A DNA stretch of 64,000 bases from Collinsella tanakaei (GTDB lineage: Bacteria > Actinomycetota > Coriobacteriia > Coriobacteriales > Coriobacteriaceae): NCBI RefSeq assembly GCF_021531055.1, contig NZ_JADYTL010000002.1:1-64000 (forward strand), read 5' to 3'. Positions 26,497-53,039 of the stretch are shown here, in pieces (positions within the stretch are counted from its first letter, which is position 1; every line of letters starts with the position of its first letter). The notes under the pieces were generated by a model. The model made no database searches, had not been told where the DNA came from, and was given only the letters and a program-made list of their open reading frames with translations. Made by a program: the position numbers and the translations under genes.

Positions 26497-26580
26497 GCCG
26501 ACTCCTTCGCAGAGTGTTACGAATGCTTATCATCGTATCACGCATCGGACAGCATGGTAGCCTCGGCGCACGCACACGCC

Positions 26581-26606
26581 AATGTAAAAATACCCCTGGG
26601 GTTTTT
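26581..26606. repeat. Degenerate CCCCTGGGG palindrome
   Basis: An imperfect copy of the palindrome family described at 26618, with arms TGTAAAAATACCCC and GGGGTTTTT. It lies upstream of the binding protein gene. Confidence 0.6.
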
Positions 26607-26617
26607 GAACTGCCTCC

Positions 26618-26650
26618 AATGTAAAATAACCCCAGGGGTTATTTTACATT
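26618..26650. repeat. Perfect 33-bp palindrome (CCCCAGGGG core)
   Basis: Two 16-base arms beginning AATGTAAAATAACCCC are perfectly complementary around a central A. It borders a duplicated piece of the cca gene on one side. Confidence 0.85.
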
Positions 26651-26710
26651 GAGGTAGGCGAGCAGCTCGTCGGTCCGGTTGGGCACCGCCCCGCTCATCG
26701 ACGCCTTCAG
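26651..26710 (-). pseudogene. Captured 60-bp fragment of a second cca allele
   Basis: These 60 bases match the last codons of cca at 26773-26832 with four differences. On the minus strand all four fall in third codon positions and are synonymous (Leu, Ala, Gly, Glu). In this copy the reading frame would run into the flanking palindrome as L-N-V-K-stop. It is therefore a remnant of another functional cca allele, trapped between palindromes, not random noise. Confidence 0.8.
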
Positions 26711-26741
26711 ATGTAAAATAACCCCTGGGGTTATTTTACAT
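26711..26741. repeat. Perfect 31-bp palindrome (CCCCTGGGG core)
   Basis: Two 15-base arms starting ATGTAAAATAACCCC flank a central T. A half copy (GGGGTAATTTTACATT) follows at 26746-26761 immediately before the cca stop. Confidence 0.85.
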
Positions 26742-26763
26742 TGCAGGGGTAATTTTACATTGG

Positions 26764-28170
26764 CTACAGGTCGAGGTAGGCGAGCAGTTCGTCGGTCCGG
26801 TTGGGCACCGCTCCGCTCATCGATGCCTTGAGCGCACGGCGCAGCAGCTCGCCCACGCGCGGACCCGGCTTGACGCCGGCGGCGATCAGATCGCGGCCCT
26901 TGAGGGCGAGCGTCCCCATGCTATATGCCTCATGGTTGGCGATGAGCTCGCGCACCATCTCGCGCATACGCTCGATGTCCTCGACGTAGTAGAAGCACGA
27001 CGGCGCCTTGCCGAGGGCATCGGCGCGTTTGAGGTCGAACAGCTCGCCCATGAGCCGCGCGGTGTTGAGCCCCTCGCCCGAGAAGATCCGCATCACCTTG
27101 AGCAGGTCCTCGCGCTCGGCCATCATGGGCCTATCGTGATAGCGGATGAGCAGGCACGTATCGCGGATCAGGTCGTTCGAGCACGACAGCCGCCGCATGA
27201 TGTCGCGCGCCATCGTGGCTCCGAGCTCCGGGTGTCCGTAGAAGTGGCCGCGACCGTTCTCGTCGACGGTAAAGGTGCCGGGCTTGCCCACATCATGCAG
27301 CAGCGCCGCCCACATGAGCGAAGGCGAGGGCGGCTGGTCGGGATCGCCGCCGTCGATGCGGAAGCGCGACAGTTCGCCGGCCACCGTGAGCACGCGGGCG
27401 ATGTGCTCGTAGACATCGTAGGCATGATAGGGACTGCGCTGGTCGAAGCCACGGCAGACCGCGAGCTCGGGAATCGCGGCGCACATGAGCTCGGGATAGC
27501 GCAGCAGGGCGTCGCCGCCGTGCGCTGTCACGAGGATGCCCTCGAGCTCGATGCCCACGCGCTCGCGCGCCACGGCGTCAAGCAGCGGGGCGCAATCCGC
27601 GAGGGCCTGCGCGGTCGCAGGTTCGATGCGAAAGTCCAGACGGCAGGCGAAGCGCACCGCGCGCAGCATGCGCAGGGCGTCCTCCTCAAAACGGCGGCGG
27701 GGCTCCCCCACGGCACGGATGACCTTATGAGCGAGATCGTCCTGTCCACCATACAGGTCGAGCAGGCCGCGCTCGGGATGCCATGCCATGGCGTTCACGG
27801 TGAAGTCGCGCCGTGCGAGGTCGTCCTCCACGCACGAAGCATGCACGATGCTCTCGGGATGGCGCCCGTCGGTGTAGAAGCCGTCCAAGCGGTACGTCGT
27901 GACCTCGATGCGCTCACCGTCGACCACCGCCGTGATGCCGCCGAACTTGATGCCGGACTCCACCACCTGGATACCCGCCGCCTCGAGCGCGGCCTCGTTT
28001 TGCTGCCAGGTGCCGGCGCAGCACAGGTCGACGTCGTGACCGGATCCGCCCATGAGTGCGTCGCGCACCCAACCGCCGACGACCCAGGCCTCCAGGCCGG
28101 CCGCCTCGAGCACACGCAGCACACGCAATGCCGCGTCGGACAGGTACGTCCCGTTCAGTTGCGCTCTCAT
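26764..28170 (-). CDS. cca: CCA tRNA nucleotidyltransferase / poly(A) polymerase family
   Basis: The enzyme adds or repairs the 3' CCA of tRNAs. The class II nucleotidyltransferase motif is VVGGWVRDALMGGSGHDVDLC, with the G-G and D-x-D metal ligands; RRDFTVNAMAWHP and RRRFEEDALRMLRAVRFA (polymerase beta neck motifs) follow, and an HD domain carries LLHDVGKPG. At 468 residues it matches HD-containing bacterial CCA enzymes. ATG 28170 has GGAG six bases upstream; a GTG at 28185 with AGGAG is an alternative. Its 3' end is partly duplicated just downstream among palindromes. Transcribed divergently from the sigma factor gene. Confidence 0.95.
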   Translation of the reverse strand: MRAQLNGTYLSDAALRVLRVLEAAGLEAWVVGGWVRDALMGGSGHDVDLCCAGTWQQNEAALEAAGIQVVESGIKFGGITAVVDGERIEVTTYRLDGFYTDGRHPESIVHASCVEDDLARRDFTVNAMAWHPERGLLDLYGGQDDLAHKVIRAVGEPRRRFEEDALRMLRAVRFACRLDFRIEPATAQALADCAPLLDAVARERVGIELEGILVTAHGGDALLRYPELMCAAIPELAVCRGFDQRSPYHAYDVYEHIARVLTVAGELSRFRIDGGDPDQPPSPSLMWAALLHDVGKPGTFTVDENGRGHFYGHPELGATMARDIMRRLSCSNDLIRDTCLLIRYHDRPMMAEREDLLKVMRIFSGEGLNTARLMGELFDLKRADALGKAPSCFYYVEDIERMREMVRELIANHEAYSMGTLALKGRDLIAAGVKPGPRVGELLRRALKASMSGAVPNRTDELLAYLDL

Positions 28171-53007: not shown

Positions 53008-53039
53008 AATGTAGAAAAACCCCTGGGGTTATTTTACCT
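53008..53039. repeat. Imperfect CCCCTGGGG palindrome upstream of thi operon
   Basis: AATGTAGAAAAACCCC and GGGGTTATTTTACCT form the same palindrome family as at 26.6 kb with several mismatches. It lies immediately before the thiC promoter. Confidence 0.65.

Follow-up and report, generated by a model that had tools for sequence, protein, structure and literature searches.

A copy of the cca gene end among REP-like palindromes of Collinsella tanakaei, with local duplication as the favoured origin

We analysed a stretch of 64,000 nucleotides from Collinsella tanakaei (the window) and found that the 3′ end of cca is present a second time just downstream of the gene, enclosed in a cluster of palindromes that belong to a dispersed REP-like family. 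On balance, this copy probably arose by a local, REP-associated duplication, an origin that we favour over the import or replacement of an allele. The results widen a one-locus story about cca to a genome-wide one, that of a REP/RAYT family in Collinsella that is apparently undescribed.

Layout of the cca 3′ end and its copy

The product of cca contains the Pfam domains PolyA_pol, HD, tRNA_NucTran2_2, and PolyA_pol_RNAbd and has orthologues within Collinsella of up to 97% amino acid identity. The features around its 3′ end are given here in window coordinates, with the strand where one applies.

26764–28170, minus strand: cca (CCA-adding tRNA nucleotidyltransferase), natural end ...A-Y-L-D-L-TAG
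26773–26832, minus strand: last 20 codons of cca before the terminal D-L-stop, the template or partner of the copy
26744–26762: half-REP, CAATGTAAAATTACCCCTG on the cca strand, directly 3′ of the cca stop codon
26710–26743 (core 26711–26741): REP 1, palindrome ATGTAAAATAACCCC-T-GGGGTTATTTTACAT
26651–26710, minus strand: copy of the cca 3′ end; 26651–26707 (57 bp) secure, last 3 bp ambiguous at the junction
26617–26651: REP 2, palindrome CAATGTAAAATAACCCC-A-GGGGTTATTTTACATTG, an inverted copy of REP 1
26582–26612: REP 3, ATGTAAAAATACCCC-T-GGGGTTTTTGAACTG, one arm decayed (family-pattern match C9:26584–26610)
26578–26764: REP cluster including the captured cca end, one nested hairpin as single-stranded DNA
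53009–53039: a further single REP of the cca-palindrome family

A sequence-only reading of this DNA had described the segment at 26651–26710 as a duplicate of the last 20 cca codons with four synonymous changes, lying between perfect palindromes, and both descriptions hold. The copy and the cca end are identical at 56 of 60 positions, and the four differences are all synonymous and all at third codon positions. The outermost difference (CTG vs CTC) lies in the triplet at the palindrome junction with only a shared 'CT' before it, so the secure homology covers 57 bp and three differences (54/57 identical; E about 4e-22 in a self-comparison). The palindrome arms, 17 nt in REP 2 and 15 nt in the core of REP 1, are both perfect apart from one unpaired central base, and the two REPs form a 37-nt inverted repeat with 97% identity. 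The unit is enlarged by the half-palindrome on the cca side and the third palindrome on the far side, which were absent from the earlier description. Folding of the complete 187 bp gives one nested hairpin of –66.4 kcal/mol (z –12.4).

On the minus strand, cca ends with ...GCC TAC CTC GAC CTG TAG and the half-palindrome follows almost directly. The frame of the copy instead runs CTC AAT GTA AAA TAA (L-N-V-K-stop), so that its stop codon comes from REP 2; here too the earlier reading was correct. The natural cca end can be written as CTC GACCTGTAGCC AATGTAAAAT, and GACCTGTAGCC is missing from the copy. Judged from these junctions, the copy appears to be a second unit of cca end plus REP with an 11-bp loss that reaches the REP edge. 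The captured piece of cca probably has no function.

It is highly improbable that this arrangement is an assembly artefact or a chance repeat. There is a single assembly and palindromes are able to confuse assembly, but the low E-value of the match and the distinct bases borne by the two copies argue against this, as does the occurrence of the same REPs at 53 sites and in sister species.

The palindromes form a dispersed family that tracks a RAYT gene

We rejected the idea that the palindrome is private to cca because its half-sites and full sites are spread genome-wide. The genome contains 84 half-sites, and a search of its 2.23 Mb with a degenerate pattern for the full site gave 53 matches compared with 0 for a reversed-pattern control. 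As expected of REPs, the family is dispersed, has many copies, and lies mainly outside genes. Among 45 genomes of the genus it is present in four, with 53 full sites in this genome, 38 in C. tanakaei ET30 (which has the REP CCCTAGGG), 25 in G038, and 4 in G022; the other 41 genomes contain 0 sites. Alignment of 106 REP ends revealed neither a conserved tetranucleotide (GTAG or CGTC tag) outside the palindrome, the foot of which is ATGT, nor a conserved flanking insertion dinucleotide. Because the tag is absent, we make no claim that the family belongs to the classical tagged REP families.

One transposase gene is flanked by members of this family.

C13:15110–15862: RAYT-type Y1/HUH transposase gene, PF01797 above cut-off, HxH motif in DNHVHLV

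Family palindromes lie on both sides of this gene and its own TAA is inside one of them. When its product was searched against NCBIfam, the sole match was NF047646 ('REP-associated tyrosine transposase') at 60 bits, and the RAYT proteins that were searched scored 60 and 69 bits with this model, both under its cut-off of 80. The closest orthologues of the RAYT, with 76% (G038), 74% (ET30), and 55% (G022) identity, sit in exactly the other three REP-bearing genomes. REPs and RAYT thus co-occur: the REPs are confined to the genomes in which the RAYT itself or its nearest orthologues are found, four in all, and number 0 in the other 41. In ET30, a REP is found just upstream of the start codon of the RAYT orthologue. 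Because REPs flank the RAYT gene, its product matches PF01797 and, below cut-off, NF047646, and its orthologues match the REP-bearing genomes, we take these palindromes to be the REPs that belong to a REPtron. From this sequence evidence, they were most likely spread by the RAYT encoded at C13:15110–15862, the action of which on these palindromes is putative. Three more RAYT-type genes (G000:C8:234237–234962, C9:168462–169184, and C13:139471–140202) have no cca-family REPs nearby.

The likeness to the REP/BIME and RAYT (TnpA-REP) system, or REPtron, extends to dispersed palindromes of 20–40 bp that are intergenic near gene 3′ ends and often form inverted doublets, and to a Y1/HUH transposase gene flanked by palindromes in the same genomes. 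Unlike that system, the Collinsella palindromes have no adjacent GTAG or CGTC tag, and the NCBIfam RAYT model scores below its cut-off. The Collinsella REPs carry no GTAG tag, yet they track a RAYT lineage species by species. A literature search for REP and Collinsella together returned nothing relevant.

REPs supply the stop codons of other genes

A REP closes the reading frame of at least seven other genes in this genome. Three of them we presume to be cysS, gltX, and mnmA, names that were read off the translated sequences.

cysS (putative): ...IKHVK
gltX (putative): ...DLAM
mnmA (putative): ...VRNARM
HAD-like gene: ...LLNVK
FAD-type gene: ...LAHVK
RAYT: ...ARVM
gene at C14:26952: ...QYPM

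The junction of the HAD-like gene, ...CTC AAT GTA AAA TAA, has the same form as that of the cca copy and is common to ET30 and G038 (...LLNVKLP), and in G022 the gene end is free of a REP (...LMRV). At mnmA, G038 retains TAGCCCTGG between the gene and the REP; this stretch is absent from our genome, apparently a change similar in kind to the 11-bp loss that we propose for the cca copy. The gene at C14:26952 has a natural stop and a spacer of about 100–160 bp in ET30 and G038, both of which are missing here. Because REP-supplied stops recur at other genes, the junction of the cca copy appears to be a standard product of this genome and not a singular event. These stops and the unfused state in relatives bear out the earlier proposal that a palindromic element at the gene end acts as a rearrangement junction. 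The supply of stop codons to ORFs is on record for GTAG REPs, and the Collinsella family resembles those REPs in this respect and in the reiteration of flanking DNA (PMC3733652).

Is the copy a piece of a second cca allele?

The sequence-only reading further held that the copy had belonged to a second functional allele and arrived by recombination. In general terms, two diverged cca alleles would have met, in either direction. A foreign cca fragment ending in a REP may have been joined downstream of the gene, or the fragment may be the end of the original resident gene, and the present cca a later arrival that replaced it through homologous recombination, one junction being the REP. We regard such a meeting of alleles as possible and as distinctly less probable than local duplication.

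The key argument for two alleles is that all differences are synonymous. This outcome is expected in 5–12% of cases if the copy is neutral and in 34–84% if both copies are constrained, giving a likelihood ratio (Bayes factor) for constraint on both of about 5–12 with three differences and 8–28 with four. The pattern thus offers modest, not decisive, support for constraint on both copies. Also in keeping with a second allele, the copy differs from cca by 5%, compared with 9.3% between the whole gene and that of ET30, and the fusion of gene ends to REPs is stable within the clade. Each of the four variant bases of the copy occurs in the cca of some Collinsella relative, as an allelic origin would have it; all four together occur in none.

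Other data argue against this explanation. The sequence of the copy was found in none of 79 cca loci from GTDB species genomes, in a collection with one genome for each species, and the local cca matches it better than any sampled allele, with 3 differences over 57 bp compared with 4 for the closest relative (L018). We rejected a mosaic tract in cca; divergence from ET30 does not rise at the 3′ end of the gene, which therefore lacks the mark of an imported tract. With relatives as outgroups, GCG→GCA and GAG→GAA are derived on the present cca, since ET30 and L018 are like the copy, and for GGG the simplest assumption is that it arose in the copy. Of the three secure changes, two thus fall on the branch of the present cca, on which selection acts in any case, and the third on the copy. 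An allelic origin would also require a donor whose fragment was precisely juxtaposed. Local duplication of gene ends across REPs, by contrast, is found elsewhere, and these similar cases raise the prior for a local origin. A second functional allele as the source of the copy is, on this sequence evidence, unproven.

Gene-end duplications across REPs

Flanks and spacers were compared at 80 REP clusters, and 3634 positions served as controls. Direct copies scored above a level reached by 0.4% of controls in three of the 80 clusters, where about 0.3–0.6 were expected, so the excess of direct copies at REPs is modest. The three clusters are cca, C13:17924 (a 27-bp repeat of a tRNA-Lys terminator), and ET30 C2:46242. 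In the last, a gene end (...LMLARA, TAG) is followed by a REP, a 20/21-bp copy of the gene end including the stop, and another REP, an architecture like that of cca. A weaker direct copy (15/16 bp) was found at C15:9439–9545 beside the end of an aminotransferase-like gene, where ET30 and G038 have a 1.1-kb stretch and this genome has a REP pair in its place. At C12:118285–118590, the REP is followed by a truncated copy of the 3′ end of tRNA-Ala including its terminator (63 bp, 95%), and the intact tRNA-Ala gene follows about 190 bp further on. The duplications at C12:118285 and C13:17924 were not counted as strong support because tRNA genes or terminators are part of them and turnover of tRNA arrays may be their source. 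A fixed-length target-site duplication was rejected, as the lengths are 16, 21, 27–32, and 57–60 bp and many REP sites have none. REP clusters that reiterate variable lengths of flanking DNA have been described (PMC3733652). The cca cluster is like these in that a REP and an adjacent stretch of DNA are repeated in tandem, and unlike them in that the flank comes from the 3′ end of a housekeeping gene and its two copies differ by 5%.

The following steps could account for the local duplication that we favour. REPs of the cca family would settle at gene 3′ ends, where their hairpins would provoke small rearrangements of two types. In one, a deletion would join the final codons of the gene to a REP, from which the stop codon would then come; in the other, a short piece of the adjacent gene end would be repeated directly. 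The cca unit of gene end plus REP would have undergone tandem duplication. A deletion of about 11 bp (GACCTGTAGCC) at a one-base microhomology (C) would then have removed the sequence that separated TAC-CTC from the REP in the downstream unit, which would yield L-N-V-K-stop, and the two copies would afterwards have diverged by three or four substitutions. The duplication may have preceded the deletion, as set out here, and its cause may have been the RAYT or replication stalling or slippage at the hairpin. Several observations weigh against this explanation: a neutral copy should gather more changes than cca, and we observed one compared with two; all secure differences are synonymous; REP clusters show direct duplications only slightly more often than expected; and the palindromes lack the GTAG/CGTC tag of the classical families.

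REP doublets and inverted flank repeats

The inverted arrangement of REP 1 and REP 2 raises another explanation, that a REPIN-like REP doublet with the cca end as its spacer was transposed by the RAYT. In single-stranded form, the segment would have been excised close to both REPs and placed inside an older REP after cca, the halves of which would now lie outside. This would fit the two near-identical, inverted REPs around a 60-bp spacer, nested between the half-REP and the third REP. It would also fit the edges of the copy, both of which follow CT in cca, and CT/CA is the reported cleavage dinucleotide of a group 3 TnpA-REP (PMC8266576). However, the excised donor would have had to come from a cca that REPs interrupted on either side, the 106 REP ends show no conserved flanking dinucleotide, and doublet spacers vary from site to site except in two or three pairs with a common core. 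We consider this transposition unlikely.

Like a REPIN, REP 1 and REP 2 are inverted, pair over 37 nt, and hold the spacer inside one hairpin (z –12), and other sites here form near-perfect doublet hairpins of about 85 bp. Unlike in REPINs, the spacer at cca is a copied gene end, and many REPs here are singlets. In a REPIN, the doublet has a spacer length typical of its family and is kept as a unit of replication; the spacers found here differ in both sequence and length, the few pairs with a common core excepted.

Inverted extensions of the flanks by 23–31 bp were far more strongly enriched than direct copies, with 5 observed compared with about 0.06 expected. They are perfect inverted repeats beyond the REPs of the doublets L262 (ET30 C1:263.7k), L277 (G038 C146), L190, L175, and L191 and could represent insertion into an existing palindrome or extension of a hairpin.

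In addition, about ten sites have near-perfect palindromes of 80–110 bp in which two REPs surround a GC-rich, terminator-like stem. These are L181/L129 (C11:201122–201221), L189/L139 (C11:204172–204258), L131, L135, L128, L124, L136, L141, L142, and L123. L129 and L139 have the common core ggcggacgatcaaatcgtccgcc and differ in their outer arms (AAAATC vs AAAAAT), each of which shows perfect self-pairing, as though one arm had served as the template for its partner.

Wider meaning and other palindromes

We tentatively raise, as a doubtful generalization, that the spread of untagged, RAYT-linked REPs across the clade regularly duplicates 16–60 bp of the adjoining gene end and swaps natural stops for REP-supplied ones. 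If true, REP movement would incidentally reshape the C-termini of genes and leave behind dated fossils of each gene end. At fused and duplicated gene ends, comparison with sister species can date REP insertion, deletion, and duplication, and these sites bear on how REPs move and affect neighbouring genes.

A second dispersed palindrome family, GGGAAAATAGGGACAGTCCCTATTTTCCC, occurs at L185 (C10:9434 region), at L162 (254–336), and at L178 (1220–1249 and 2084–2116). It has dozens of matches in sister species, and no transposase was matched to it. The direct and inverted copies at L185 belong to this other family and were masked out of the comparison of duplications at REPs. Lastly, a 62-bp perfect palindrome beginning CGACAAGTTTGCACCTGGCACCATCTTGTCG lies at L164 (33–94; C11, near 136 kb), and a related hairpin adjoins a REP at C9:99221.
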